From contig JAQWNP010000014.1 of the NCBI GenBank assembly GCA_029268515.1, positions 62,001 to 126,000 of the forward strand: 64,000 bases of DNA, written 5' to 3'. Below the pieces are notes generated by a model. The model made no database searches. It was not told where the DNA came from and saw nothing but the letters and a program-made list of their open reading frames with translations. This DNA is from Phycisphaerales bacterium. Lineage in GTDB: Bacteria; Planctomycetota; Phycisphaerae; Phycisphaerales; SM1A02. Made by a program: the position numbers and the translations under genes. Below, in pieces: positions 4,481 to 56,090 of this stretch. Each line of letters opens with the position of its first letter. Position 1 is the first letter of the stretch.

Positions 4481-6796
4481 TTAGCCGCTTTTCTTTTCTG
4501 TCATTTGTGGGTACATGAGTATCCGGTCATGGCTCAGTAAAATGATGTCGTGAGCGCCGTCATTGGTCATGTCTGTAATGATGACCTGGCTAGGCTCGTA
4601 TTCTCTTCCCGCTCCACCAGAGAACAGCTTTGACTCGAAGACCTGGAAGCCTGTGACATATTTCAGATCGCCGTTCTTGGTAAACGTGAAGATCTCTAGC
4701 ATCTGTTCGCCACTATCGAGTGACACCATGTCGGTATAGCCGTCGGCATTGACATCACCGACAGAGAGCTCATGTTGCATGCGGCGTTCTTCATCGGTTC
4801 GCCAAGTGTTTGCTTCCTTGAGTGAATAACGATCCCCACTCAAGCGAATGACGGCAAAACCACTCTTGCCGATGGCAAGCACATCCGCATCGCCGGACCC
4901 AGCAAATGAGCCTGAGTAGATCGGGCCAAAATCAAAGTTCCTGACCGAGATGGCCTCTTTTTCGCTCCAGGGGCCCGTGGTGTCATTTTCTGAGTTCATA
5001 ATCAGGAGACGGTCATTTTCTTTGTCTGCAACGAGCAAGTTGCCATCGGGCAAGAGGTCGATCGCGACGAGATCGGCAGTTGAATCATGGGCGTTAATTT
5101 GCTCAATGACCTGCCATCCAGGACTAATGCCATTTCCCGGGTTCGGTTCGTAGCGGACACCCCGTACAAAGTTCTTATCTGCGATCAGGAGCTCTGCTTT
5201 TCCATCGAAGTCGATGTCTTTGACGGCGGTGTTGTCGCTTCCAGCTGCTTTGACCAAGCCGTATTGACCCATGCTGTCTGATTCAACCATTTCAAAGCCA
5301 TCATCAGTTGCATGCATCATGATCATGGGCCGGTCAGGGGTCATCAGTAGGAGGTCGGTCTTTCCATCCTGATCTGCATCAATAGCAAGAATGGCCTCTG
5401 GCGACTTTGTCAATTTGCCAAGTTCAAAACTGCGCCGTTGGCCATCCATATCAATCAGATCGATCATGTAATCACGGGTGGACTTGCCAATGACAGCGAC
5501 GGACATTCCATCATTGAGTTCGACAAGACTCAGCGCCAGTGGCGTGTGCCCGTCGGAAAGATTGAGTGGTCGTGGGAAGGGGATCTTGCCATCGGCGGTG
5601 ACATCGCTCCGTCCAACCACGCCTTCTTTTTCGCTCAGCACAAAAATCTCTGCCTGAGGATCATCATCAACATTGCCAGCGACGACTGATTTGACATCGG
5701 AAAGACCGGGATGCAGAACGCCAGCCTGCATACCTTTACCGGGGGTTTGCCGGTAGATGGCCAGGGCATTGGCTTCTGTGTCCGTGGCAACGAGATCTAA
5801 GAGTCCATCACCATCGGTGTCGATGACTGTTTGTTGGCGGCCTCGATTAGAGGGGTCGGTAAAGCTCTGGACTCTTAGCGAGGCTTCTCGATCGCCGGTT
5901 TCGGCGACGGCTTCTTTACTCACTTTATACAAAACGATACGTTTTGAGGCCTTCTCAATAACGGCCATACGCGCGGCGGGGTCATCGGGAAGTGTCACAG
6001 AGATGAACTCGCGTAGGGCGGGCATTTCAAATGGAATTTGACTGCCTATCGTCTTCATGCCTTGTTCAGTACTGCCAAGCCAAAGTCTGACAGGTGCTGA
6101 ACTTTCTGGAATGATTCCAGCGACATCTGTTTGTCCATCGCCGGTGAAATCTGACAGTCTAAATGCAGCGATACCTTCACCGGATGACAGCACCGTCTCT
6201 TGGCCCAGCTGATCGCCATCCATGGGCCAAATCCAGATGTCGCCTTCAACGAGACTCACTAATTCTGGTGCTGAATCACCGATGAGATTTGCCACAGCGA
6301 ACCCGCTTCGATTGGCGGTGAGGTTTTTGACGCGGTGGCGACGGCTGGTCTCAAAATTCCCCAGTGATGTCTGTTTGAGGAAGACAATCTCATCAGGGCT
6401 GCCAGCATAGATCAGGTCACTGAGTCCATCATTGTCAAAATCATGGATCGCAATGGCCATGACCTTATGCATGACTGAAATCTGTTCACGGTTAAACCGC
6501 CAGTGTTCGGGCAGTTCGTTGGCATGTTTGGGATTGGCTTGTTCAGAGGAGGGGCTTGCATTTTCTTTCTGCGTGAGCAGATCAATTCGGCTTGCACGGT
6601 TGTTGATTGCAATAAGGTCTTTCAGGCCATCATTATTAATATCGCTGATATAGATGGGTCCTGCGTCTCTGCCAATTTTAATCACTTCGAGGCCACCAAA
6701 ACCAAAGTGATCTGCCAGATCTGATTCCTGGCCCATGAGTGTGGTGGGAAGGCAAAAAGTCAGTAGCAGGCATGATGACAGAATAGAACGTGGCAT
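4481..6796 (-). CDS. Secreted FG-GAP/VCBS-repeat protein
   Basis: A 771-residue exported protein. It starts with a signal peptide (MPRSILSSCLLLTFCLPTTL, cleaved near GQESD) and a good GAGGAG ribosome site lies eight bases upstream. Nearly the whole mature chain is FG-GAP/VCBS repeats, seen as repeated calcium-loop motifs such as DINNDGLKDLIAI, DFDNDGLSDLIYAG, DFTGDGQTDVAG, DTDGDGLLDLVA, DADQDGKTDLLLM, DIDFDGKAELLI and DVNADGYTDMVS. These form a beta-propeller-like scaffold used for adhesion or ligand binding outside the cell, and no catalytic residues were recognised. Unlike the CRTAC1 proteins at 40665-42416 and 52005-53912, it lacks a C-terminal ASPIC/UnbV domain. It ends four bases from the convergent citrate synthase stop and is divergent from the protease gene at 6946. 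Its ligand is unknown. Confidence 0.8.
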   Translation of the reverse strand: MPRSILSSCLLLTFCLPTTLMGQESDLADHFGFGGLEVIKIGRDAGPIYISDINNDGLKDLIAINNRASRIDLLTQKENASPSSEQANPKHANELPEHWRFNREQISVMHKVMAIAIHDFDNDGLSDLIYAGSPDEIVFLKQTSLGNFETSRRHRVKNLTANRSGFAVANLIGDSAPELVSLVEGDIWIWPMDGDQLGQETVLSSGEGIAAFRLSDFTGDGQTDVAGIIPESSAPVRLWLGSTEQGMKTIGSQIPFEMPALREFISVTLPDDPAARMAVIEKASKRIVLYKVSKEAVAETGDREASLRVQSFTDPSNRGRQQTVIDTDGDGLLDLVATDTEANALAIYRQTPGKGMQAGVLHPGLSDVKSVVAGNVDDDPQAEIFVLSEKEGVVGRSDVTADGKIPFPRPLNLSDGHTPLALSLVELNDGMSVAVIGKSTRDYMIDLIDMDGQRRSFELGKLTKSPEAILAIDADQDGKTDLLLMTPDRPMIMMHATDDGFEMVESDSMGQYGLVKAAGSDNTAVKDIDFDGKAELLIADKNFVRGVRYEPNPGNGISPGWQVIEQINAHDSTADLVAIDLLPDGNLLVADKENDRLLIMNSENDTTGPWSEKEAISVRNFDFGPIYSGSFAGSGDADVLAIGKSGFAVIRLSGDRYSLKEANTWRTDEERRMQHELSVGDVNADGYTDMVSLDSGEQMLEIFTFTKNGDLKYVTGFQVFESKLFSGGAGREYEPSQVIITDMTNDGAHDIILLSHDRILMYPQMTEKKSG

Positions 6797-6945
6797 AGAA
6801 CAAGCTCCTCAGTGGTTCGCCAATGGTCAGTACGCTCCTGACGTACGTGGAACGCAGTCCAGAGAGGGATATACTACACTATGCGGTCTCGGCCATCTGG
6901 GGCCGCTGCGTGTATTTTTATGATCTGCTCATGCCGGAGAATGTT

Positions 6946-7923
6946 ATGCCAAATAGGATTAATTCATCGTTCTTTTGTCTGGCCTTGGCTATCGCCTCGA
7001 CGCTGTCAGCGGGTGTATTAGCAGACATCATTACTCTTAATGGCGGTGCTGAAGTCAAGGGCACAGTCGTCAAGCGTAATGATCGTGCGATCTGGATCGA
7101 TGTGGGGCCCGAAATTCTGATGTTCAACGTCGAGGACGTTGGCAATGTTGATCTTTCTGAATCAGAAGGCGTCATGAAAGTGAAGTCTGATTCGTTGTTC
7201 CGCACAGCAACAGATCTGCCAGAGCTGAGTCCACGCGAGCAGGCAAAACGCATTGGTCCAGCGGTCATCAAAGTCTCTACACCTGGAGGCTTGGGATCAG
7301 GGGTCATCATTAACGACAAGGGCAACGCTATTACGAATGCCCATGTGATCCAAGGCGAAACGAATCTAAGAGCAACGGTCTGGATCACACAGCCAGATGG
7401 CACGCTCAAGCGAGTCGTCATGGAAGATATCGAGATCGTTGCAGTCAATAATCACTTGGATCTTGCGCTTCTTCGTATTCCGGAACTTGATTCCAAAGGC
7501 ACCGCATTTGCTCCGCTGGAGCTTGCAGAGTCAGTGGAGATTGGTCAGCCCGTTTTTGCGATTGGAAACCCGCTTGGTTTAGAGCGAACAATGAGTCAAG
7601 GGGTGATTTCAACAACGCAGCGAAGTTTTGATGGAATCACTTACATTCAGACTGATGCAGCGATTAATCCAGGTAACTCTGGCGGGCCACTGTTCAACAC
7701 CAAAGGTGAGGTGGTCGGAATTACAAACATGGGAATCCTTGGTGGTGAAGCACTTGGTTTTGCAATACCAACAAGGTATTTGAAAGATTTTATTCGCAAT
7801 CGCGAAGCATTTGCGTACGACAAAGACAACCCCAATTCTGGGCATCGTTATCATCCGCCGCCTTCCCGTGAGGCTTTTGGGCCATCTCCGGGTCTTGATG
7901 ATTCGACGTCTGTGGCAGAGTAA
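6946..7923 (+). CDS. Exported HtrA/DegP-like serine protease without PDZ domain
   Basis: A periplasmic trypsin-like protease of family S1C. The start at 6946 was chosen because GGAG lies seven bases upstream and a standard signal peptide begins there (MPNRINSSFFCLALAIAST, cleaved after VLA). An in-frame ATG at 6931 and a longer upstream extension are less likely. Residues 28-70 form a small beta domain (LNGGAEVKGTVVKRNDRAIW) often seen in planctomycete secreted proteins. The protease domain carries the triad: His in ITNAHVIQ, Asp in NNHLDLALLRI and Ser in NPGNSGGPLFN. The protein ends soon after ALGFAIPTRYLKDFI with a Pro-rich tail, and there is no PDZ domain, so activation probably differs from DegP or DegS. 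It is divergent from the FG-GAP gene and followed by a secreted protein of unknown function on the same strand. Confidence 0.87.
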   Translation: MPNRINSSFFCLALAIASTLSAGVLADIITLNGGAEVKGTVVKRNDRAIWIDVGPEILMFNVEDVGNVDLSESEGVMKVKSDSLFRTATDLPELSPREQAKRIGPAVIKVSTPGGLGSGVIINDKGNAITNAHVIQGETNLRATVWITQPDGTLKRVVMEDIEIVAVNNHLDLALLRIPELDSKGTAFAPLELAESVEIGQPVFAIGNPLGLERTMSQGVISTTQRSFDGITYIQTDAAINPGNSGGPLFNTKGEVVGITNMGILGGEALGFAIPTRYLKDFIRNREAFAYDKDNPNSGHRYHPPPSREAFGPSPGLDDSTSVAE

Positions 7924-8004
7924 GAGCGACTTTCCTCCTTATGAAGGTTGAGAATTGGGTCTATTGACTAGCTGGAAGCGAATCCGAGAAAGGATGACTC
8001 TTTG

Positions 8005-9726
8005 ATGAAGTACATATTGGTTGGTGCGACAATATTGGGTGCAGCAAGCCTGGTTCAGGCAGACATTACGATGGCAGAGCTGTCGCCGAAAAACTCTATT
8101 GTCGTTGCTGGTTCAAACAACATGGAAAAAATGGTTGAGCAGGCAAAAGCGAGTGGTCTGATGGATATCTGGGAAGACGAGCGTCTCCAAGGTGTTCGAG
8201 ATCAAATGAACGAGCAGATGCTTGATCAAATGAAAGAGTTCAAGGAACAGTTGGATATTGAGGAGATGCCACCTTGGCCGAACGGGCCCGTGGGCATGTC
8301 AGTTTTCAGTGTGACTGATCCTGAGACAGGATTCACAGATCCTGGTGTTCTCGCGTATGCCTCGTATGACGGCGACTCTATCGCATTGGCGAAAGATGTT
8401 CTGGACAAGCTGATCGAAAAGGCTGAGGCAGAAGGTGAGATTGAGGTTGAGGAAAGTGATCTCGCTGGAGCAGATGTCCGTATTTTGCGAGCAAAAGTCA
8501 AAGAAGGCCCATGGGATTCTTTCCCAGCGATGTATCTGTTCCAGAAGGATGGGCACTTTCTTATTGGCAGCGACAGCGAGAGCGTCGCCCAGGCAATCGA
8601 AGTTATCGGTGGCGGTGATTTAGAAATGCTCAGCGCCGACAGTAACTACCAAGGCCTGCAAGAGCTGATGGGAGATAAGGGTGCTTACGTTTGTGTCATG
8701 ATGCCTGCCGTTTGGGACATGGTTGCCAGTACGGATAGCACTGGCATGTTCTTTATGGTCCAACCAACGATCAGTGCACTTCTTGGTGATCTGAAGTCAG
8801 TAGGTATGAGCATGGGCATGAATCATGGATCAGCCATGATCGAGGCGCAAATGGCCGCTTATATGCCAGAGGGCAAGACCGGTTTGATGTCTTTGATAGG
8901 CAAGAATGCAACGGTGGGTGATCTGCCGAGTTTCGTATCAAGTAACACGATCTCTGTGAGCGAGATGTCGGTCGATTTTGCGGGCATTATGCCGATGATG
9001 CAGAAGATCATTCGCTCGAGTCCAATGCTGGCCATGCAGGCACAGGAAATGATGACAGAGTGGGAGCCTCGCCTGACCAAGTTGTTTGGGTCGATGGGCA
9101 CACGTGTTTACAACGTGACCGCCGCGACAAAGCCCTACTCCATGGAGACCATTCACAGCACCTATGCGTTGGAGTGCAAAGATGCTCAGGCCTTTGAGAC
9201 GGCGCTGGCAGAAATTGCTCCAATGGCAGGCATGCAGCCTCGCGATTTTGTAGGCAATCGAATCTACTCCATGAACGCAGGTGGGGCAGGCGCTAGCTTT
9301 TCAATCGGTATCGGCGGTGGCTGGGTATTTATGGGCACCGATCAGTCAGTTGAGCAAGGATTGCGGAGTGCTGGTGCTGGGGATGTTGGAGCATTTTCAA
9401 CCAACGCCAGTTTCCGGACTGCCATGGCCACGCTGCCAGGTGACTCATTTGTGAGCTGGAGTTATACCGAGATCGTCGAATATCTTGAACTTGCGGCCGT
9501 GGAGATGGAAGCTGGGCATAAGGAAATGCTTGAGCAAATTAGGCAGTTTGATCCTGATGCAGCCGACGAGATGGCTGCTGAAGGCTTGGATTCTCCAATG
9601 AAGGATATGGATATGGAGCTTCTTCGCGAGTACTTTGGTGCGGTCGTGTCTGAGACGAAGTCTGTTGAAAATGGCTTTGTTGGTAAGTTCTATGTACTTC
9701 CAGGAACCAAGCGTCAGCAGGGCTAA
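8005..9726 (+). CDS. Secreted protein of unknown function
   Basis: A 573-residue exported protein that I do not recognise as a named family. The N-terminus is a signal peptide (MKYILVGATILGAASLVQA). The mature protein is acidic and methionine-rich (for example MDIWEDERLQGVRDQM and MMQKIIRSSPMLAMQAQEMM), with a glycine-rich strand near the middle (NAGGAGASFSIGIGGGW). The general style (self-similar alpha/beta segments, YLFQKDGHFLIGSDSESVAQ, and a C-terminal GKFYVLPG) resembles DUF3352-type secreted proteins, but this is a weak impression. AAGGA at 7990-7994 supports the ATG at 8005 over the TTG at 8002. A strong hairpin terminator at 9755-9792 ends the unit. High Met content might reflect metal binding or simply an amphipathic fold. 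Confidence 0.75.
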   Translation: MKYILVGATILGAASLVQADITMAELSPKNSIVVAGSNNMEKMVEQAKASGLMDIWEDERLQGVRDQMNEQMLDQMKEFKEQLDIEEMPPWPNGPVGMSVFSVTDPETGFTDPGVLAYASYDGDSIALAKDVLDKLIEKAEAEGEIEVEESDLAGADVRILRAKVKEGPWDSFPAMYLFQKDGHFLIGSDSESVAQAIEVIGGGDLEMLSADSNYQGLQELMGDKGAYVCVMMPAVWDMVASTDSTGMFFMVQPTISALLGDLKSVGMSMGMNHGSAMIEAQMAAYMPEGKTGLMSLIGKNATVGDLPSFVSSNTISVSEMSVDFAGIMPMMQKIIRSSPMLAMQAQEMMTEWEPRLTKLFGSMGTRVYNVTAATKPYSMETIHSTYALECKDAQAFETALAEIAPMAGMQPRDFVGNRIYSMNAGGAGASFSIGIGGGWVFMGTDQSVEQGLRSAGAGDVGAFSTNASFRTAMATLPGDSFVSWSYTEIVEYLELAAVEMEAGHKEMLEQIRQFDPDAADEMAAEGLDSPMKDMDMELLREYFGAVVSETKSVENGFVGKFYVLPGTKRQQG

Positions 9727-9754
9727 TTTGTAACAACATCAGTTGAAAAAATAG

Positions 9755-9792
9755 CAGGGCCTCTGATTCGTCAGAGGCCCTGTTTCATTTTT
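9755..9792 (+). terminator. Rho-independent terminator, probably bidirectional
   Basis: A perfect 12-bp stem (CAGGGCCTCTGA, 9755-9766, with its complement at 9771-9782) closed by a TTCG tetraloop and followed by TTTCATTTTT. An A-rich stretch before the stem (GAAAAAATAG) would supply a U-tract on the minus strand. It lies 28 bases after the stop of the secreted protein gene and about 60 bases past the end of the convergent mlaE gene, so it probably ends both transcripts. Confidence 0.93.
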
Positions 9793-9854
9793 GGTGCGTT
9801 TTTGATCAGGCAATAGTGAGCTTGGAAGCTCTTCATAGACGACGGCTTGTCAGT

Positions 9855-10715
9855 CTATGCCCAACTGAAGCAGTAAAAGAGGAACGTGAAGAAAAGATCT
9901 GCAATCACAACCGCAACAATCGTCTCAACAACAGTGTTGGTTGTGGCACGACCAACGCCTGCGGCACCTCCCGATACCGAGAGGCCGTTGTAACAAGCGA
10001 TGCACCCCAGAATGATGCCAAAGACACCTGCTTTGACAAGTCCTGTGACAAAGTCTGCTACATCGAGCTGCATCAGCGTGTTGGCCTTATAGACTTCATA
10101 TGGTACGTCCATAAATTCAATAGCCATGAAGCCAGCGGCGACCACTGCTATGACGTCCCCGAACACCGTGAGCAGAATAAGGCTCAGGGTTGTTGCCAGC
10201 ACGCGTGGTACAACAAGAAAGCGAATTGGATTAAGCGCATGAGCTTCCAGTGCTTCGATTTCTTCGCCGACAACCATCGTGCCCAGTTCTGCGGCAATCG
10301 ATGCACCTGCAAAGCCAGTGAGTACGATGGCAGAGATCAGTGGCCCTAGTTCCTTGAATACGGCAATGCCGACAATATTTGCGATTTTGTCGACCTGCCC
10401 AAATTCAGCAAGGGGTCCTTCCATCTGCAAAGCGAGTATGAGGCCAATGCAGGCACAAACTAATAAGACGATGGGGAGCGATCGCACGCCAACTCGAATG
10501 ATTTGTGTTACGAGGGCAGCTCGGCCAAATCGAACACGACGGTTGGTGGCTGATCGATAAACCCAAATAGCGACGGCTGACATGACGGTGGCAACGCCCC
10601 CGATCAATTCCAAGATGCCTCGTATCAGATGCCAGATTGATACCCACATGGCGCCCCATCGCTCAATGATGCGATAGGGAACCGAGTGTCTTGTCGTAGT
10701 CGCATTCTCTGTCAT
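9855..10715 (-). CDS. mlaE: MlaE-family ABC transporter permease
   Basis: MlaE permeases form the inner-membrane core of MCE lipid transport systems that move phospholipids between the inner and outer membranes. The roughly 286-residue protein has five or so hydrophobic helices and family landmarks: RFGRAALVTQIIRVGVRS, LILALQMEGPLAEFG, ELGPLISAIVLTGFAGASI and AAELGTMVVGEEIEALEA, which is the most conserved stretch, then NPIRFLVVPRVLATTLSL and the C-terminal VVIADLFFTF. The usual partners MlaF (ATPase) and MlaD (MCE protein) are not in the window. Instead it follows an RsbV-like STAS gene and an RsbW-like kinase gene on the same strand, with a 20-base gap. An in-frame TTG three bases earlier is an alternative start. 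The STAS neighbour might act as an MlaB-like partner, since MlaB is also a STAS protein. Confidence 0.9.
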   Translation of the reverse strand: MTENATTTRHSVPYRIIERWGAMWVSIWHLIRGILELIGGVATVMSAVAIWVYRSATNRRVRFGRAALVTQIIRVGVRSLPIVLLVCACIGLILALQMEGPLAEFGQVDKIANIVGIAVFKELGPLISAIVLTGFAGASIAAELGTMVVGEEIEALEAHALNPIRFLVVPRVLATTLSLILLTVFGDVIAVVAAGFMAIEFMDVPYEVYKANTLMQLDVADFVTGLVKAGVFGIILGCIACYNGLSVSGGAAGVGRATTNTVVETIVAVVIADLFFTFLFYCFSWA

Positions 10716-10738
10716 CAAAACCGTCTCGGGTGGCGAGC

Positions 10739-11089
10739 TTACTTAGTGTTCAATGCCTCTTCGATGCAATTGACGATGGTGAATACCATATCAAGTCTGG
10801 CGATCTCAAAGATTGAACGGACGCGTTCTTGTAAGTTGCACAGCACAAGCTTTGAATCATTGCGCCTTGCCACTTGCATGCCTTCCACAAGTGTCGCAAC
10901 ACCTGATGAATCCATGTAGGGCACGTTAGTGAGATCGATGACAAGCCGCTCAGGCATTTGGGCTTGAACTTCTCCAAGCCGCGTGCGTAGCGAGGCAGCA
11001 CAGGATAGATCGATATCACCAGTTGGCATCACAATCGTGGTTGTGCCATTGACTTCGATATTCAGATTGAGTTCCACCCCATCATTCAT
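10739..11089 (-). CDS. STAS-domain anti-sigma factor antagonist (RsbV/SpoIIAA-like)
   Basis: A 116-residue single STAS domain. In partner-switching systems such proteins bind a kinase/anti-sigma factor and release a sigma factor or other target, and phosphorylation of a conserved Ser turns them off. The sequence shows TTIVMPTGDIDL at the N-terminus, LVIDLTNVPYMDSSGVATL, where the DSSG serine is the phosphorylation site, and VRSIFEIARLDMVFTI at the end, all as in RsbV. The start overlaps the end of the upstream RsbW-like gene by eight bases, which strongly supports a functional pair. The mlaE permease follows 20 bases later. A role as the STAS subunit of an Mla transporter (MlaB) is the alternative. 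The adjoining kinase favours the partner-switch reading. Confidence 0.88.
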   Translation of the reverse strand: MNDGVELNLNIEVNGTTTIVMPTGDIDLSCAASLRTRLGEVQAQMPERLVIDLTNVPYMDSSGVATLVEGMQVARRNDSKLVLCNLQERVRSIFEIARLDMVFTIVNCIEEALNTK

Positions 11090-11591
11090 GTTGGTGCTGG
11101 CTTTCTTTTTGATTTTCCATTGATGGTGAGACTTTCTGGGCTTGATTGCCCATTCCTTGCTTACACATGGTCAAGCTCATGCCACCCTCTGAACGCATAG
11201 CGTAAGACACATCGTCCATGACTTCATTGATAATGTACACGCCGAGGCCGCCTGGACGTACCTCAGCGAGATCTCGAGAGCGGATCGTAATTGGATCGAC
11301 CTGTTTGGCCAGATCTTCGATCAGGAAGACTGCTGAGGGCGGCGTCTGGTTTTGAGTCTCTGTGAACATGGCTGAAAGCCAGATAGGGCCATCCATTCGT
11401 CGCTCATAGCCATGATTAATGACATTGCAGAGGGCCTCATCAATGGCCAGTCCAATCTGATTGCACTCCAGCTCAGAGAACCCAAAACGCCCAGCAGCAT
11501 GCGAAATCATGGCACGTACCCCAGCCAGCAAGCGTGGATCGCTCATCAACTGAACGGATAACTGAGCATCTTGTTTTGGGTTTGCTTTCAT
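11082..11591 (-). CDS. RsbW-like serine/threonine kinase, anti-sigma factor
   Basis: A 169-residue GHKL-type ATPase of the anti-sigma regulatory kinase group (HATPase_c_2). The N-box is LAIDEALCNVINHGYE (about residues 47-62), with the Asn that binds magnesium, and the G-box region is RPGGLGVYIINEVMDDVSY, typical of RsbW/SpoIIAB and their relatives. Such proteins phosphorylate the STAS antagonist encoded next door and hold a sigma factor or another output protein inactive. The C-terminal 30 residues are Gln- and Ser-rich and probably disordered. The gene is translationally overlapped with the STAS gene, and a small lipoprotein gene lies 37 bases upstream. No cognate sigma-B-like gene is adjacent, so the output is unknown. 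The LOV/SpoIIE phosphatase at 54348-55559 is a candidate upstream partner. Confidence 0.87.
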   Translation of the reverse strand: MKANPKQDAQLSVQLMSDPRLLAGVRAMISHAAGRFGFSELECNQIGLAIDEALCNVINHGYERRMDGPIWLSAMFTETQNQTPPSAVFLIEDLAKQVDPITIRSRDLAEVRPGGLGVYIINEVMDDVSYAMRSEGGMSLTMCKQGMGNQAQKVSPSMENQKESQHQHE

Positions 11592-11628
11592 ATTGACCTA
11601 TGAACCTGCTGTTCATTTTTTGCGAGGG

Positions 11629-11994
11629 TTACTTCTGTATACCTGAGGCCAGATCTGTGGGCGGTGGGGCTAAGGTCTGGCCCCAACTAATCCAACGCAA
11701 CATGGCTGGCCTCCTGATGGGACGAGGTTCATCATACTGATAACCCATTCTATCGCCGGTTATCTCGCTCAGCACATTGATGGCTGCAAATCGAACGGCT
11801 GGGTCACCAGCGTCGAGCTGCTGTATCAGCAAAAGCCGGGTCTTGGTGTCCTCAGTGCCGCGGGCGGCCAGGATTCCGCGAATACGAGCGCCGCTATCGG
11901 TGCCAGTGAGCGTGGCCGGAATAGTGGGTGCAGCGCAACTGGCCATCAATAGGCTCAAAAGGGCAATGAGTGGTAAGTGGCTTCTCCCGTTCAT
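11629..11994 (-). CDS. Small HEAT-repeat-like lipoprotein
   Basis: A 121-residue predicted lipoprotein. The ATG at 11994 starts a type II signal peptide ([20 protein letters not shown]), where the Cys would be lipidated. A TTG 51 bases earlier would add an unlikely hydrophilic extension. The mature part contains one HEAT-like pair of helices ([20 protein letters not shown], then [11 protein letters not shown]), a fold used for protein contacts. It then ends in a Pro- and Arg-rich stretch with a [12 protein letters not shown] motif. No enzymatic feature is visible. It leads the minus-strand series that continues with the RsbW-like kinase, STAS protein and MlaE permease, which would fit an envelope sensor or tether for that module, though this is only context. 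It is divergent from guaA. Confidence 0.68.
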
Positions 11995-12122
11995 CTGCTC
12001 AGGATACGCCGTATCGCCCCCAGAAAGCAATCGACCTAGCTGCAAGCAGGCATGGGAGGTACACTTGCCCCCTTACTCCCTGGTCGCCTCTCAAGAGGCA
12101 TTTCTCCTTCGTGACGGATTGC

Positions 12123-13739
12123 ATGACGATTGATCTAGCTCATGTCCACGCTGCTGCGGCCCAGGCTGACGTAGTGCCTATTCTGGATTTTGGAAGTCAG
12201 TACGCGCAGTTAATCGCTAGACGGGTGCGCGAAGCTGGGGCTTTCAGCATTCTGCTTGCGCCGGACACACCGGTTGATGTTTTGGCCCAGCTTAATCCCA
12301 AGGGCATTATCTTGTCTGGTGGGCCATCAAGTGTGTCGGCGGCGAATGCCCCAGTCTGTGATGACCATCTCTTTGAGCTGGGCGTTCCAATCTTGGGCAT
12401 CTGCTATGGGATGCAGCTTGCATGCGAAATTTTGGGTGGGCGAGTCGATGCCGCTGAGGCTCGTGAGTATGGTCGGGCGCGACTTGAGGTGATGCAGTCA
12501 GGCGGACTTCTAAAAGGGCTCCCAGAGAAGACGACTGTTTGGATGAGCCACGGCGATCAAGTGCAGCAGTTGGATAAGCACTTTGACACGCTTGCCCGCA
12601 CGGATACTTGTGCGTATGCAGCTGTTCGCCATAAAGAGCTTCCTCTTTATGGTCTTCAGTTTCATCCTGAGGTGACACATACACCACACGGAATTCAGAT
12701 CTTCCGTAATTTTCTATACGAGATTTGCGGATGCCGCGGGTCTTGGAAGATGAGTAATTTCTTGGAGACCGCTTGTGATCAGGTTCGTGAGCAGGTTGGT
12801 AATGGCCACGTCATCTGCGGGCTCAGCGGGGGTGTTGATTCGTCGGTCGTCGCTGCATTGCTGGCTCGAGCACTCGATGATCAGCTGACTTGTATCTTTG
12901 TCGATAATGGTTTGCTTAGAAAAAATGAACGAGAACTGGTTGAATCGACATTTAGGGATCACTTTAATATTGATCTTAAAGTGGTCGATGCGACAGCTCG
13001 TTTTTTAAAGGACCTCGAAGGTGTCACAGATCCGCAAGAGAAGCGGCGTCTGATTGGGCATCGTTTTATTGATGTATTCAAGGAAGAGTCTGAGAAGATT
13101 CAGGGCCTATCTGGTCAAGACCGTGAAGGATCTTCCCCGTGCAAGACTCAGTTTCTTGCGCAGGGTACTTTGTACCCGGATGTCATTGAATCTGGGCATG
13201 GTCATGCTGGTACAGCGGCCAATATTAAGTTGCATCATAATGTTGGTGGATTGCCTGAGGACCTTGGGTTTGAGTTGGTGGAACCACTTCGTGATCTCTT
13301 TAAAGATGAAGTGCGAAAATTGGGTGAGGTGCTCGGGCTTCCCGGTAGGATCATCTGGCGTCACCCGTTTCCAGGCCCAGGCCTTGCGGTGCGTATTATT
13401 GGTGAAGTGACACCCGAACGTCTTGATCTGCTTCGAGAATGTGATGAGATTGTTCTGGAAGAAATTATTGCGAACGAACTTTATCGTGTGACTGACCAGG
13501 TCTTTGCGGTTCTGCTGCCAGTCCAGTCAGTTGGGGTGATGGGAGATGGCCGGTCCTATGAGTCTGTGGTGGCGGTGCGTGCAGTGGAGACTCAGGACTT
13601 CATGACCGCGGACTGGGCGCGAATCCCTTATGACATCCTGGCGACCATCTCAAATCGGATCATCAATGAAGTGCCAGGTGTAAATCGTGTCGTCTATGAC
13701 ATTTCAAGTAAGCCACCAGCTACGATAGAGTGGGAGTAG
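12123..13739 (+). CDS. guaA: GMP synthase (glutamine-hydrolysing)
   Basis: GuaA aminates XMP to GMP with ammonia from glutamine. The protein (about 538 residues, the normal size) has the class I glutamine amidotransferase domain first: [28 protein letters not shown] with the catalytic Cys, and QFHPEVTHT with the catalytic His. The ATP pyrophosphatase domain follows, with the P-loop [15 protein letters not shown] and [14 protein letters not shown]. The dimerisation domain comes last, with [15 protein letters not shown] and the usual C-terminal KPPATIEWE. The ATG at 12123 begins about 16 residues before the first conserved strand. The frame is open for 51 codons upstream without family similarity, so the later start is preferred. 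It is divergent from the lipoprotein gene at 11994, with a 128-base promoter gap. Confidence 0.95.
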
Positions 13740-13805
13740 TTTTGCTGGTGTAGGCCATAGATCGCCTTGATTTCGAACAGTTTTGGCTGAAGGTAGTAAG
13801 AAGAA

Positions 13806-14774
13806 ATGAAAAACTTCACTACGAAAGTTTTGTCCTGTGCAGACATTTTATTTCTTCCATTTATTCTCTTGGCGGCATTGCTACTCAAGGCTTACAGGCG
13901 TTTGGGGTCGAAGCACTTAAGAGCAAGTACCAAAATGCTAAAAAGATTGGGCGTGTTCCCGATCATAGACCAGTACTACGAGCCAATGTTCAATGATGCC
14001 AATCTAACCAAGTCTTTGGCAGACAAGAGAGTTCTTCCAGGTCTCGATTTCAGAGAAAATGAACAGCTCAAATTGTTAGAAGAGCTCACTTTCCAAAATG
14101 AATTTGATGAGTTTTTAGAGGGCGAGAAAACAAAGCCTGCGGAAATGGCGTTTTGTTTAGGTAATGGAGCTTTCGAGTCTGGAGATGCCGAGTTCTTGTT
14201 CAATTTTATTCGGCACAGCAAGCCAAGGAAGGTTGTAGAAATTGGATGCGGTTCAAGTACAAAGCTCATTTCTCATGCTTCACAGTTAAACGAAATAGAC
14301 ACAGGTCAAATGTGTAACCACATTTGCATTGAGCCATACGAACAGTCATGGCTTGAGGGCTATCCTAAAATTAGTTTAATGCGAAGCAAAGTAGAGGACG
14401 TTGATTGCGAGGTATTTGAAAGTCTTGAAGAAGGCGATTTCTTATTTATAGACTCGTCTCACATCATTCGTCCTCAGGGCGATGTGTTGCATGAGTACTT
14501 GCGAATTATTCCCACGTTATCAAAGGGTGTGACTGTTCATGTGCATGATATATTTACGCCACGAGATTATTTAGATGTTTGGTTGCGTGAGAACGTCATA
14601 TTTTGGAATGAACAATATCTTTTAGAGGCCATGCTTAGTAAGAACTCTTCTTACGAAGTTGTAGCCGCTCTTAATCTGCTGAAACATGAGTATTTTTCAG
14701 ATCTTAAGAAGGTGTGTCAGTATCTGACAAGCGAGAGAGAGCCTGGTTCTTTTTACTTTAGAGTGTCCAGATAA
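13806..14774 (+). CDS. Membrane-anchored class I SAM-dependent methyltransferase-like protein
   Basis: A 322-residue protein with an N-terminal hydrophobic helix (ILFLPFILLAALLLKAY) followed by a cytoplasmic Rossmann-type methyltransferase domain. Motif I is KVVEIGCGSSTKLIS (residues about 140-155), an acidic CIEPYE ends strand 2, and DFLFIDSSHIIRPQGDV with VTVHVHDIFTPRDY form the later strands, as in the Methyltransf_24 group often found beside glycan synthesis genes. The substrate cannot be named. The coding sequence is visibly richer in A and T than guaA or dnaX on either side, with many AAA, TTT and ATT codons, and the gene stands alone between unrelated housekeeping genes. These are signs of horizontal transfer. 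AAGAAGAA just before the ATG is the only ribosome-site candidate. Confidence 0.75.
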   Translation: MKNFTTKVLSCADILFLPFILLAALLLKAYRRLGSKHLRASTKMLKRLGVFPIIDQYYEPMFNDANLTKSLADKRVLPGLDFRENEQLKLLEELTFQNEFDEFLEGEKTKPAEMAFCLGNGAFESGDAEFLFNFIRHSKPRKVVEIGCGSSTKLISHASQLNEIDTGQMCNHICIEPYEQSWLEGYPKISLMRSKVEDVDCEVFESLEEGDFLFIDSSHIIRPQGDVLHEYLRIIPTLSKGVTVHVHDIFTPRDYLDVWLRENVIFWNEQYLLEAMLSKNSSYEVVAALNLLKHEYFSDLKKVCQYLTSEREPGSFYFRVSR

Positions 14775-52004: not shown

Positions 52005-53912
52005 ATGACCAATGTCAAAAATTCTATTGACCCCAAAGAGTCATCGGCAAGAGATACCCCTGACACAGACGGCAGCCAGCAGTATGTGCCAGAAGACGAT
52101 GCCATTATTGGCACGTTTTTCTGGTGGTCACTGTCGTGCTTTATAGGTGTCGGGTTGGTTATTGTGATCGTGGTATTGGTAATCAATTTTTGGCCAGCGC
52201 CTGAAGAGATTATTCAGGACAAAGACGTTGGAGCTATCAAGCCATTAGTTGCAGATGTAACTGTTCTGCCTGAGGTTGCATTTAAAGATGTTACAGCGGC
52301 CTCTGGTATTGACTTCATACATACCAGCGGTGCTCGTGGGGAGAAATTACTTCCTGAGACAATGGGAAGTGGCGCAGCATTTTTTGATTTTGACGGCGAT
52401 GAAGACCAAGATTTATTGCTCATTAATGCTCGGCCGTGGCCCCATACACAAGGCGATTCTTCAGAAGTGCCATCAATAATGGCTCTTTATGAGAATGATG
52501 GTGCCGGCCAATTTTCAGATGTTACTGATGGCAGTGGTTTGAACGTCCCTCTTTATGGCGTTGGTGTTACTGCGGGTGACTACGACGGAGATAACCAAAT
52601 TGACATCTTTGTTTCATCTCTTGGTCAAAATGTCCTCTTTCGTAATAGAGGGAATGGTCAGTTTGAGGATGTCTCTGAACAGGCGGGTGTGTCAGGTTCA
52701 GGAGATGCATGGAGTACCAGTGGCGCCTTTGTTGACTATGACAATGATGGAGATCTCGATCTCTTTGTCACAAACTATGTGCAATGGACTGAGGAGATTG
52801 ATCGCTCCCTTCATTTTTCACTCAATGGTGTTGATCGAGCTTATGGTCCGCCAACCCTCTATAAGGGAAGCCACTCAAATCTTTATCAGAACAGCGGGGA
52901 TGGCACGTTTGTAGATGTCTCGCAGGCAGCAGGAATCCAGGTTGACAGCCCGCACGGCAGTGGTGCTATGGGAAAAGGGTTAGCCGTCATGCCAGTTGAT
53001 TATGATTTAGATGGGGATATCGATCTGATTGTTGCGAACGATACGGTTCAGAACTTTCTTTTTGATAATCAAGGGGATGGCACTTTTTTAGAACGTGGTG
53101 CTGCATCAGGATTAGCATTTGCATCAGATGGCCAGGCGACTGGAGCCATGGGTATTGACGCGGCAGATTATCGAAATGATGGGTCTTTGGGAGTTGGAAT
53201 CGGAAACTTTGCCAACGAAATGACCTCGCTGTATGTCACGCAAGGGCAAGATGGTTTCTTTGCTGATGAGGCCATTGGCGAGGGCATTGGATCGCCGACG
53301 CGGCCGCTCTTGTCATTTGGTCTTTTCTTCTTTGATTATGACCTGGATGGCCGCTTGGATCTCTTTCAGACGAATGGTCATTTGGAGGAGACGATCAATG
53401 AAGTTCAAGCAAGCCAGTTTTACCGGCAGCCAAGTCAGTTATTCTGGAACTCGGGGCCTGGCCAACGTTCGACATTCAAGATTGTGCCTGCCGAGAAAAC
53501 AGGGGATCTGGCCATTAAGACCGTCGGTCGAGCGGCTTCATATGCAGATATCGATGGGGATGGCGATCTAGATATTTTGATTACGCAGACTGGTGACCGT
53601 CCAATCTTGATGCGTAATGACCAGGAACTGGGGCACCATTGGATTCGGCTGCGTTTGGCCGGTGATGGAAAGAATCCAGATGCAATTGGTGCTCGCATTG
53701 AACTGACAGCCAATGGTGTCACTCAGCGACGTCAAGTCATGCCAACCCGAAGCTACCTCTCTCAAGTAGAGTTGCCTATTACCTTTGGCCTAGAAGATGC
53801 GGATCACATTGACTCTCTTCTGATTACATGGCCCGACGGTTATGAGCAGTTCATCGAAGGTCTGGAGATCGATCGTTTTCATGTGATCTCCAAAGAAGAG
53901 CCAGCATCATGA
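52005..53912 (+). CDS. Membrane-anchored CRTAC1-family protein (FG-GAP plus ASPIC/UnbV)
   Basis: A 635-residue protein anchored by one N-terminal helix (SLSCFIGVGLVIVIVVLVIN, about residues 45-65) rather than by a lipid. Outside it has FG-GAP/VCBS repeats (DFDGDEDQDLLLIN, DYDGDNQIDIFVSSLG, DYDNDGDLDLFVTNYV, DYDLDGDIDLIVAN, DYDLDGRLDLFQTNG, DIDGDGDLDILITQTG) and a C-terminal ASPIC/UnbV domain (AIGARIELTANGVTQRRQVM, then DHIDSLLITWPDGYEQFIEG). It shares its build with the lipoprotein at 40665. It is 21 bases downstream of the multiheme cytochrome gene and overlaps the RidA gene by ATGA. One repeat near residue 390 (DYRNDGSLGVGIGN) has a degenerate metal loop. The function is unknown. Pairing with the cytochrome suggests a redox-linked surface complex (inference). 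Confidence 0.89.
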   Translation: MTNVKNSIDPKESSARDTPDTDGSQQYVPEDDAIIGTFFWWSLSCFIGVGLVIVIVVLVINFWPAPEEIIQDKDVGAIKPLVADVTVLPEVAFKDVTAASGIDFIHTSGARGEKLLPETMGSGAAFFDFDGDEDQDLLLINARPWPHTQGDSSEVPSIMALYENDGAGQFSDVTDGSGLNVPLYGVGVTAGDYDGDNQIDIFVSSLGQNVLFRNRGNGQFEDVSEQAGVSGSGDAWSTSGAFVDYDNDGDLDLFVTNYVQWTEEIDRSLHFSLNGVDRAYGPPTLYKGSHSNLYQNSGDGTFVDVSQAAGIQVDSPHGSGAMGKGLAVMPVDYDLDGDIDLIVANDTVQNFLFDNQGDGTFLERGAASGLAFASDGQATGAMGIDAADYRNDGSLGVGIGNFANEMTSLYVTQGQDGFFADEAIGEGIGSPTRPLLSFGLFFFDYDLDGRLDLFQTNGHLEETINEVQASQFYRQPSQLFWNSGPGQRSTFKIVPAEKTGDLAIKTVGRAASYADIDGDGDLDILITQTGDRPILMRNDQELGHHWIRLRLAGDGKNPDAIGARIELTANGVTQRRQVMPTRSYLSQVELPITFGLEDADHIDSLLITWPDGYEQFIEGLEIDRFHVISKEEPAS

Positions 53913-54298
53913 AGGACCGGCAGTACATTTCATCTGGTACACCTTGGGAAGAACAGGTCGGATACTCGCGGGCGATTCGTGTTGGCCATATGGTCTTTGT
54001 TACCGGTACCCTTGCCGCTGATGAGCATGGTCAAGTGTATGCCCCAGGCGATGCGTTTGAGCAGACTTGCTATGCACTAAGAAAAATTGAATCAGCCCTG
54101 ACTGAGGCTGGAAGTTGTTTAAAAGATGTTGTGCGAACACGAATCTACATCACCGATATGGCTTACGCAGATGAAGTGGGGCGGGCTCACAAAGAATTGC
54201 TGGGTGATATTCGGCCAGCCACAACAATGGTCTGTGTAAGCGGGCTCTGGGGAGAGGGCAGTGTGGTTGAGATCGAGGTTGATTCGGTGATTAGCTAA
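53909..54298 (+). CDS. ridA: RidA-family (YjgF/YER057c/UK114) protein
   Basis: RidA-type enamine/imine deaminases remove reactive 2-aminoacrylate and similar intermediates of amino-acid metabolism. The 129-residue protein has the fold's landmarks: SGTPWEEQVGYSRAIRVGHM at the start, VFVTGTLAADEHGQVYAPGD, LTEAGSCLKDVVRTRIYITD with the conserved Arg that binds the substrate carboxylate, and the C-terminal TTMVCVSGLW, VVEIEVDSVIS. The Glu in VEIEV is the expected final active-site acid. Its start overlaps the CRTAC1 stop (ATGA). The last 46 bases of the gene, plus 24 bases beyond it, are duplicated at 55592-55661 on the far side of the LOV gene. Confidence 0.92.
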   Translation: MKDRQYISSGTPWEEQVGYSRAIRVGHMVFVTGTLAADEHGQVYAPGDAFEQTCYALRKIESALTEAGSCLKDVVRTRIYITDMAYADEVGRAHKELLGDIRPATTMVCVSGLWGEGSVVEIEVDSVIS

Positions 54299-54322
54299 GC
54301 GAATGCACTACGAACTCGTCAC
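54253..54322 (+). repeat. 70-bp imperfect direct repeat, left copy
   Basis: This copy covers the last 46 bases of ridA (through its TAA at 54296-54298) and 24 more bases. Those include a minus-strand match to the final codons of ytoQ (Val-Thr-Ser-Ser-stop). It matches 55592-55661 at 64 of 70 positions without gaps, and five of the six differences are transitions. Similarity stops sharply at both ends. The LOV/SpoIIE gene lies between the copies, so the pair marks the borders of a 1269-base insertion (54323-55591). Confidence 0.9.
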
Positions 54323-54347
54323 CTCCTGGAAGAAGGGGGATGACATG

Positions 54348-55559
54348 TCAACAACTGTCCTTCCCAATTTGTATCCCCAAGATGGAAACATCATCATCAT
54401 TTTTATTGTTGCTGGCCGTCTGGAGAACTGCTTGCATCGTTTCATCGATACTTGCTTGTAAAGTGATCGCACGGTGACGTATCAATTCTGCCATAAGACG
54501 CTTCATCCCAAACATCTCGCCGTTGGTATCTGCCTGTTCAATCGCACCATCGCTGTAGAGGTAGATGCGGTCGCCATGCTGATAAGAAATTTCCTGCAAA
54601 TGGTAATTGGGGTCCGGTACGATTCCAACCGGAAAGCCGGTGGACTTGATTTCTATCGCCTCATTGTTCCGTACCAGGATCGGTGCTGGATGGCCGGCGG
54701 AAACAAATTGCAACGTTTGGTTGTTTGGGTTCAGCACCGCATAGCAACAGGTGAAAAATTTCGAAAAATCTCGATTCATTTGAAATGATTGGTTCAATTG
54801 TTCCACCGCGGCGACCGGATTTTGGCGCAATTCCAACGGCATTCTGGACAGCCAGCAACTTAAGGTCGTGGACAAAAGAGCGGCTGCAACGCCATGCCCG
54901 CAGACATCTAAAAGGTAAAAAGCAAACTGGTTGTTTTTCATTGTCAGCACATCCAGAATGTCACCGGCCAATTCGTCACAGGGTCGGAACGCCCAAGCAA
55001 CCTGGATGTCGTCGAGTTGCGGAATGGAAGTTGGCAAAAGAGCCTGCTGGATTTTGGCCGCTGCCATAAGCTCATTTTTCATGCGAAGATTGGCTGCAGC
55101 AAGGCTGGCATTGGATTCAATGAGGTTTTGCTCTGCCCGTCGGCGACGACTCACATCTGATTGAACTCCAATCAAATGAGTCGTTCTTCCGGAGGAATCC
55201 CGAATAGGCGTAATAGACAGACGGTTCCAAAACGGGGTTCCGTCCTTGCGATAGTTGATCAGTTCGACTTCGCAATTACGATCTTCCTCAATCGCATTGC
55301 GTATTGCCCGAACCGCATCTGGATCTGTTTTAGGCCCCTGAAGAAATCGACAGTTGGAACCCAAAGTTTCCTCCACGCTGTACCCTGTCAGGCGTGAGAA
55401 ACCCTCATTGATGTAAATCAGTGGCCGGTCTTCAGCCAGGGCGTCGGCAATGGTAATTCCCTCTGCTGCGGCATCAAAAGCGCGGTCTTTTAAAAGCAGT
55501 TGCTCCATGACGTTTTTGTCACTCAAGGCGGAACGCAATGGGTGGTTTTCAGGAGGCAT
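54348..55559 (-). CDS. LOV-domain blue-light receptor fused to SpoIIE/PP2C phosphatase
   Basis: A 403-residue cytoplasmic protein. Residues 25-137 are a PAS domain of the LOV class: GSNCRFLQG carries the photo-adduct Cys70, and the flavin contacts Arg71, Gln74, Asn102 and Asn112 (INYRKDGTPFWN) and Gln133 (GVQSD) are all present, so light-dependent FMN adduct formation is expected. A helical linker (AAANLRMKNELMAAAKIQQA) leads to a SpoIIE-type PP2C domain with the metal Asp residues in LAGDILDV, LDVCGHGVAAALL, YSDGAIEQAD and NKNDDDVSIL. This resembles RsbU-like phosphatases that dephosphorylate RsbV-type STAS proteins. A STAS/kinase pair lies at 10739-11591. The gene sits alone between 70-bp direct repeats and is convergent with ridA. 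CCGGAAAAG precedes the ATG. Confidence 0.93.
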   Translation of the reverse strand: MPPENHPLRSALSDKNVMEQLLLKDRAFDAAAEGITIADALAEDRPLIYINEGFSRLTGYSVEETLGSNCRFLQGPKTDPDAVRAIRNAIEEDRNCEVELINYRKDGTPFWNRLSITPIRDSSGRTTHLIGVQSDVSRRRRAEQNLIESNASLAAANLRMKNELMAAAKIQQALLPTSIPQLDDIQVAWAFRPCDELAGDILDVLTMKNNQFAFYLLDVCGHGVAAALLSTTLSCWLSRMPLELRQNPVAAVEQLNQSFQMNRDFSKFFTCCYAVLNPNNQTLQFVSAGHPAPILVRNNEAIEIKSTGFPVGIVPDPNYHLQEISYQHGDRIYLYSDGAIEQADTNGEMFGMKRLMAELIRHRAITLQASIDETMQAVLQTASNNKNDDDVSILGIQIGKDSC

Positions 55560-55591
55560 GTTGGCTTTTCCGGTAACACATTGAATGGTCC

Positions 55592-55661
55592 AGAGGGTAG
55601 TTTGGTTGAGATTGAGGTTGATTCGATGATCAGCTAAGCGAATACACTACGAACTCGTCAC
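55592..55661 (+). repeat. 70-bp imperfect direct repeat, right copy (ridA 3' relic)
   Basis: This copy reads as the last residues of a RidA protein (GSLVEIEVDSMIS, then TAA), differing from the intact gene by two conservative changes, and runs into the true 3' end of ytoQ. No ridA coding sequence lies before 55592. The copy therefore either regenerated the ridA end during insertion or is what is left of a duplicated ridA gene. It matches 54253-54322 at 64 of 70 positions. Confidence 0.9.
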
Positions 55662-56090
55662 ATATTTGAGAATTTTGACGACTTGCTCAGGGGTTCTGGC
55701 GACCGCTAAAGCGGCAGCATCGACTTCCTTGAGTGCGTGATCGTGTTCTTCTGGATGGAGGGTAATGATCGTTTTACCCTTCGCAGCGGCATAGCCAGCA
55801 TCAAAAGCTGCATTCCACTGTCTGTATTGCTCACCAAACCGTATGACCACAACGTCTGCATGATCAATCATTTTGCGTGTACGCATCGCATTGATTTTAG
55901 CCGCCTTGTGATCTTTCCAGAATGTTTGTGTTTCAGTGCCGAGCGTTGCTTCGCCGCAGTTATCACTCGCTTCGTGATCAGTGACAGGCGTGCATACATC
56001 GATGGGTAGCTTTAGGCTGTTGATGCCATCAAAGATCACATTGCGCCACGATGTATGGATCTCGCCAGAGAGGTAGATAGTCCAATTCAT
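55647..56090 (-). CDS. ytoQ: YtoQ-family protein
   Basis: A 147-residue protein of the YtoQ family, related in fold to nucleoside 2-deoxyribosyltransferases. The sequence follows the family closely: MNWTIYLSGEIHTSWRNVIF, then TPVTDHEASDNCGEATLG, FWKDHKAAKINAMRTRKMID, ADVVVIRFGEQYRQWNAAFD, AGYAAAKGKTIITLH and TPEQVVKILKYVTSS. The biochemical role is not established. Its 3' end faces ridA and the LOV gene. The final four codons are inside the right 70-bp repeat, and a copy of them is seen beside ridA at 54308-54322. This suggests that ridA and ytoQ were once direct convergent neighbours before the LOV gene entered. Confidence 0.9.
   Translation of the reverse strand: MNWTIYLSGEIHTSWRNVIFDGINSLKLPIDVCTPVTDHEASDNCGEATLGTETQTFWKDHKAAKINAMRTRKMIDHADVVVIRFGEQYRQWNAAFDAGYAAAKGKTIITLHPEEHDHALKEVDAAALAVARTPEQVVKILKYVTSS

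Follow-up and report, generated by a model that had tools for sequence, protein, structure and literature searches.

A LOV-SpoIIE gene between duplicated ridA/ytoQ junctions in a Phycisphaerales genome, a probable case of insertion with long target duplication

A gene for a predicted LOV photoreceptor lies between two diverged copies of the convergent ridA/ytoQ junction in the 64-kb stretch of Phycisphaerales DNA analysed here (the window). We consider it probable (roughly 0.7) that this gene is a horizontally acquired one-gene cassette which was put into the junction by a target-copying process, i.e., an insertion with long target duplication. In the host genome we recognised another two inserts built in the same way, and the LOV gene itself was found at a second, unrelated site in a relative. 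The host genome (G000) is a draft assembly in 20 contigs, with 99.5% completeness and 4.2% contamination.

The repeat pair and its cargo

A repeat search of the 64-kb window returned 54253-54322 and 55592-55661 as a 70-nt direct repeat with 91% identity, and it was the sole pair with a length ≥ 50 bp, identity ≥ 80%, E ≤ 1e-4 and a spacing of 300-6000 bp (self-match within the window: blastn E 2e-21). The initial annotation had described an ungapped match at 64/70 positions, diverged mostly by transitions, and both statements were confirmed by the search and a recount (five of the six differences are transitions). To the left, ridA (Rid family, Ribonuc_L-PSP; 53909-54298, plus strand; PF01042, E 6e-23) is an intact ORF, and to the right the convergent ytoQ (YtoQ family, nucleoside deoxyribosyltransferase-like; 55647-56090, minus strand; PF11071, E 6e-64; TIGR03646 above cut-off) is intact as well. 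The left copy consists of the last 46 nt of ridA, including the stop codon, and 24 nt that end in the last four codons and the stop codon of ytoQ on the opposite strand, while the right copy has the same 46 nt of ridA followed by the true ytoQ end; the gene map thus agrees with the earlier description of each copy as bearing both gene ends. The copies are separated by 1269 bases with a single gene (54348-55559, minus strand, 403 aa), and ORFs together with domain matches bear out that nothing but the LOV/SpoIIE gene is held there; two overlapping antisense ORFs (104 and 94 aa) in this interval came from a mechanical ORF list and were not counted as genes. The structure of the repeat supports the proposal that ridA and ytoQ were once convergent neighbours, and the entry of a one-gene cassette with duplication of the target and preservation of both gene ends is likewise supported.

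The 70-bp sequence had two strong matches in the host genome, the next-best having E 0.10 and 0.19. The suggestion that the same 70 bp might border other inserts was not borne out, as no third significant copy was found in the host genome. A ridA match was present in 57/181 genomes of the family, part of which were used for the locus comparison; with flanks of up to 1.5 kb, ridA was adjacent to ytoQ in none of 45 ridA loci and 11 ytoQ loci of relatives.

The 403-aa protein joins a LOV domain and a SpoIIE domain in a single chain (PAS_9 and SpoIIE in Pfam; PF07228, E 4e-47), and its translation contains GxNCRFLQ, which we take to be the LOV core motif. It matched 164 PDB sequences, of which the best 60 (E 7e-38 to 1e-26) include LOV domains of phototropin, aureochrome and blue-light receptors. 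Based on these matches, the cargo is predicted to be a LOV photoreceptor with PP2C/SpoIIE output. Of 400 order genomes sampled from a larger group, three had the gene at E ≤ 1e-55, namely the window's own genome, the sister genome G001 and G174, and the next full-length relatives in a scan of genome contigs reached at most 46% identity. The gene had no PADLOC match, no occurrence on viral contigs was confirmed, and all 743 plasmid records matching it fell below 60% identity.

Related loci in a sister genome and in UBA3158

G001 belongs to the same genus as the host, and its contig C27 (L047, also L068) has the gene order of the window, i.e., an FG-GAP gene (named by eye), ridA and the LOV gene, the LOV proteins of both genomes sharing 92% of their amino acids. 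Beyond the LOV start in G001 follows a short flank and then at least 111 bp of decayed ridA (L047:3374-3484), after which the contig ends. This stretch covers ridA codons 57-95 and is identical to the window's ridA in 95 of 115 columns, with four gap positions and a broken reading frame. At the 29 sites that separate the two ridA genes, the decayed copy sides with the window's ridA 23 times, with the ridA of G001 itself 5 times and with neither once; the agreement at 23/28 sites (p = 0.0009, the sites lying on one stretch and not being fully independent) suggests that the decayed copy probably derives from a relative of the window's ridA.

Because G001 retains decayed ridA codons 57-95 at the same place, the 70 bp of the window can be read as the survivor of a longer duplication. 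The original duplication probably began near codon 57 of ridA and extended into the final four ytoQ codons (54079-54322, 244 bp, here given as ~245 bp), a length that rests on one G001 contig which ends inside the decayed ridA and the first ~200 bp of which look foreign. The window's right copy represents what is left of the 3′ end of a second, decayed ridA, and we infer that most of the right copy of the ~245-bp duplication was later deleted in the window genome. The 70-bp duplication of the initial annotation is real, but it was longer originally. The same annotation had held that a right copy running into a second ridA would speak against the insertion; such a second ridA is indeed present in G001, yet it is a decayed duplicate of the target, and it extends the idea of an insertion more than it overturns it. 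The window's right copy favours neither ridA clearly: in the fitted stretch, 7 sites agreed with the window's ridA, 6 with that of G001 and 2 with neither, and within the 46-nt repeat the counts were 6 for the window's ridA and 2 for that of G001. Gene conversion, which may lie behind the 91% identity of the window copies, was also considered. The start of the G001 contig (L047 1-200) is AT-rich and without a Pfam match, and its translation resembles another protein, presumably DNA gyrase B; in view of this foreign-looking start, the contig may be chimeric there.

Divergence between G000 and G001 was uneven in dS (LOV 0.30; other genes 0.33, 0.59, 1.05, 1.28, and 2.4) as well as in third-position identity (LOV 0.82; FG-GAP, RimO and ridA 0.42-0.54; two further genes 0.81 and 0.73), and the low divergence of the LOV gene alone is therefore no proof of transfer between the two. 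Its use as such proof was dropped, since another gene is equally close (dS 0.33), and it was kept as a supporting observation only. Along L180 9763-11136 (G000) and L195 159-1532 (G001), the two genomes differ by 11%, against 23-28% in ridA, RimO, FG-GAP and gene B; judging from this difference, the two lineages may commonly exchange genes.

The third genome with the LOV gene, G174, contains the contig L069 of Phycisphaerales bacterium UBA3158 (over 3224 bp, L166 does not differ from L069). Its LOV protein is 88% identical to that of the window at the amino acid level, against 65% for RimO, and GC3 there is 0.70 vs. 0.52. On one side of the gene lies an SDR-like gene (without a Pfam match) and on the other a dockerin-type gene, both identified by eye, and in G176 (L170), which belongs to the same genus as UBA3158, these two genes occur without the LOV insert, i.e., as an empty site. 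The flanks of the UBA3158 insert match one another (L069 3494-3334 and 1515-1351; 0/500 shuffles as good), and both match the same stretch of L170 (0/500 shuffles each; core block of the right flank, 0/2000). As judged by these alignments, the LOV insert of UBA3158 is bordered by a target duplication of ~160 bp, at a site unrelated to ridA/ytoQ. A duplicated 3′ end of the SDR gene was suggested by alignment and failed the shuffle test (71/2000 and 347/2000), so that the duplication was put at ~160 bp only.

Within the UBA3158 cassette, one stretch is collinear with window positions 55557-55696, i.e., with the decayed ridA end and the ytoQ end (94/143 columns, E 3e-10; a longer alignment starting at 55572, 0/500 shuffles). 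Taken alone, the ridA-like block was significant (0/2000 shuffles) and the ytoQ block weak (23/2000). The final bases of the window repeat, (AA)CTCGTCAC, recur at the left edge of this cassette, at a distance of 22 nt from the LOV stop codon. From these shared pieces we infer that UBA3158 got the cassette from a window-like locus and not the reverse. For the part of the UBA3158 cassette that separates the LOV start from the junction piece, no convincing ridA alignment was obtained (6/500 shuffles, mostly owing to the LOV flank; direct comparison with ridA, 158/500). The cassette edges in the window can be described by the same comparisons. At the left edge, the 25 nt from the repeat to the LOV stop codon (54323-54347) have only the last bases, TGACATG, clearly in common with G001. 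On the other side (within 55560-55591), the first ~14 nt of the LOV 5′ flank are common to UBA3158 and largely to G001, and the ~18 nt that follow, collinear with UBA3158 and of putative ridA identity, may be a remnant of the duplicated ridA.

Other inserts and mobility signatures

The host genome was surveyed over 1.504 Mb (47%) for direct repeats ≥ 30 bp with ≥ 85% identity, 200-12,000 bp apart and with E ≤ 0.01. This yielded eight pairs. Three of these, one at the window locus and two on contig C6, are gene-junction repeats that enclose an insert. A further two were rejected as paralogous dockerin-type ends, and the remaining three form one set of short repeats at the start of C14 (1-56, 2844-2883, and 3262-3309; 3.3 kb). 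Looser settings added a paralogous gene pair (L213) and a 34-bp pair; at L184, L213 and L215 the paired sequences are paralogues, either C-terminal or over the whole gene, and not insertions.

The first insert on C6 is bordered by 50-bp repeats with 98% identity (C6:131087-131136 and 132694-132743; L180 11087-12743), and its cargo is a single gene of 493 aa with GRAM and HNH domains. Its neighbours are an RHS-repeat-like gene, whose match falls just short of the Pfam cut-off, and a cupin gene; within the repeat, one gene ends and the cupin gene after it begins. In G001 these neighbours are uninterrupted and the 50 bp occur once, in the overlap of two alignments (L195 1483-1532), which makes this an empty site. 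At E ≤ 1e-30, the HNH gene was found only in the window's own genome among the 400 order genomes, and no occurrence on viral contigs was confirmed; the profile matches of its protein to type II restriction enzymes, PtuB and IscB were weak or below cut-off. In the second insert on C6, 73/73 identical repeats (C6:107109-107181 and 113922-113994; L179 7109-13994) enclose 6.7 kb with four genes, none of which has a Pfam match. Its neighbours are convergent, an M24 aminopeptidase gene on one side and a UvrD-type helicase gene on the other; the 3′ ends of both are contained in the repeat, and no tRNA was found nearby (ARAGORN, 20-kb stretch). Counting the LOV gene twice, there are thus four insertions at unrelated sites with differing cargo, and the length of the duplication differs between them (50, 73, ~160, and 70 bp, the last from ~245 bp). 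Empty sites were found for the HNH gene and the UBA3158 LOV gene. Both neighbours read as intact ORFs in all three inserts of the host genome, and the UBA3158 insert is intergenic.

In two other genomes, G010 and G046 (200 kb each), eight repeat pairs were obtained and no such insert was recognised. One of the G010 pairs belongs to an element in tRNA-Arg(tcg) (L239, on C1 of G010, 4858-14021) with identical 49-bp repeats and a 532-aa integrase-like ORF (named by eye), which has the look of a conventional insertion and is a contrast case. The remaining pairs, one of 72 bp in G046 among them, are situated within or next to ORFs.

A profile scan covering the window insert, the HNH insert and the 6.7-kb cluster revealed neither integrase nor transposase, and the earlier observation that no integrase is inside the window insert is upheld by its content of one gene only. 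Inverted terminal repeats are likewise absent from the outer 60 nt of the LOV and HNH inserts, where the best local matches are 8/9 bp and 5 bp, respectively. A shared attachment sequence was not seen either, as the repeats at the window, HNH and 6.7-kb loci look unrelated by eye and the LOV gene occurs at an unrelated site in UBA3158. The integrase-like event offered in the initial annotation is disfavoured on the same grounds: the same LOV gene sits at an unrelated UBA3158 site, and the other inserts of the host use unrelated 50- and 73-bp repeats. Ku (PF02735) had no match in four genomes (0/4; in a control set of 14 genomes it matched in Bacillus subtilis only), which makes classical end joining an unlikely route.

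Origin of the insert and relation to known systems

If the LOV gene came in with a long target duplication, synthesis of DNA at the ridA/ytoQ junction could have switched to incoming DNA, copied the LOV gene and rejoined the chromosome upstream of the exit point (microhomology-type template switching), and because of this upstream return the insert and the direct repeat would arise in one step. This mechanism is our best guess; end joining of a long staggered break by a non-classical route would leave the same scar. Selection would favour insertions that spare both neighbours, and since such insertions would survive best, the survivors in tight junctions would be those with a duplication. The LOV gene would later have spread again, taking part of the duplicated junction along. 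It is also conceivable, though rather improbable, that a dedicated integration process with an unrecognised enzyme is at work, in which cuts or strand jumps would occur ~50-250 bases apart, bare genes without end sequences would be taken up and the neighbours would be restored.

The same final anatomy would be reached if the ridA-ytoQ junction had been tandem-duplicated first and the LOV gene had entered later, or if one homologous crossover had brought in a LOV circle with a ridA/ytoQ piece. In pneumococcus, duplications linked to transformation have been documented (excerpt of PMC3784515), for moved genes of Arabidopsis the preferred model involves circles formed from tandem duplicates (excerpt of PMC2869330), and the G001 copy could have come via homologous recombination in ridA or ytoQ. 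The HNH insert, however, lies between 50-bp copies that are single in G001, and the UBA3158 insert lies between copies of a sequence that is single in L170, while a separate earlier duplication for each site is less economical and a donor circle would require unrelated target homology at each of the four sites; we regard an early duplication or a circle as unlikely. A relic of a site-specific integrative element, with a gene 3′ end as attachment site and the integrase lost, would explain why insertion took place at gene ends and why a repeat restores them, and the tRNA-Arg element of G010 has such repeats. That element, on the other hand, has its repeat in a tRNA gene and the integrase-like ORF inside, while no integrase was seen in the window, HNH and 6.7-kb inserts, the repeats of which vary in sequence and length, and the same LOV gene occupies two unrelated sites, all of which makes a relic of this kind very unlikely.

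Known transposases produce target duplications of about 2-14 bp. An ordinary transposon, an insertion sequence or a transposon-captured gene would fit the one-gene cargo with direct repeats at its ends, but with repeats of 50-73 bp or more, no inverted terminal repeats and no transposase seen, such an origin is extremely improbable. Chance or an assembly artefact has to be weighed as well, as the compared genomes are drafts, several of them metagenome bins, and the G001 contig has its foreign-looking start. Against this stand the E-value of 2e-21, the differences between the copies, which are like those of real diverged copies, and the decayed ridA, the second LOV site and the empty sites in separate assemblies, and we consider an artefact highly improbable. 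Insertion with long target duplication thus remains the preferred reading.

Insertion with long target duplication was found by comparing two Helicobacter pylori genomes and was tied to restriction-modification genes (Nobusato et al. 2000, Gene 259:99, as related in PMC1643837 and PMC3031569); it is also mentioned in passages of PMC4978471 and PMC3154945. Like the Helicobacter cases, as far as these passages describe them, the HNH insert and the LOV insert of UBA3158 are present in one genome and absent from a relative, and the inserts studied here are flanked by long and variable target duplications, direct repeats of tens to hundreds of bp around the insert being present at the window locus (70 bp) and elsewhere (50 and 73 bp). 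Unlike them, the cargo consists of a LOV-SpoIIE protein, an HNH-GRAM protein and a Pfam-less cluster, with no restriction-modification system, the host is of the Phycisphaerales type, and the LOV cassette moved again with part of its first target. Restriction-modification cargo is a feature of the first cases and not of the mechanism. Elsewhere among bacteria, direct repeats at small variable segments are common: 10-18% of such segments carry them when E. coli, S. aureus and S. pyogenes are compared, and 66-94% of these repeats are < 30 bp (excerpt of PMC2884548); those segments, as portrayed there, are likewise short and bordered by repeats, whereas the repeats described here measure 50 to ~245 bp and hold both gene ends. 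Transposed genes of Arabidopsis have flanking direct repeats homologous to the target site, mostly of genic sequence (excerpt of PMC2869330), but they come from a plant genome, and in that excerpt the authors favour circles from tandem duplicates. Within our limited library, no literature on target duplication in planctomycete horizontal gene transfer was found. The minimal mobile elements of Neisseria are whole-gene cassettes between conserved neighbours, without mobility genes as in the present case, but they are exchanged by homologous recombination in these neighbours and are not known to leave a target duplication. The ridA/ytoQ case belongs to a known but mechanistically unexplained kind, and what is new is the cargo, the lineage and an element that moved twice.

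Gene gain is mostly credited to transposases, integrases or the exchange of homologous flanks, none of which is in sight here. Instead, single genes appear to enter tight junctions and to leave a long duplicated target as a scar. This shows a route by which genes can be inserted into dense genomes with their neighbours unbroken, and by which a cassette can move on together with a piece of its earlier target. Half of one genome yielded three such scars and a relative a fourth; with empty sites for two of the four, they form a set on which models of the mechanism can be tried, and a little-understood route of gene gain thereby becomes testable.
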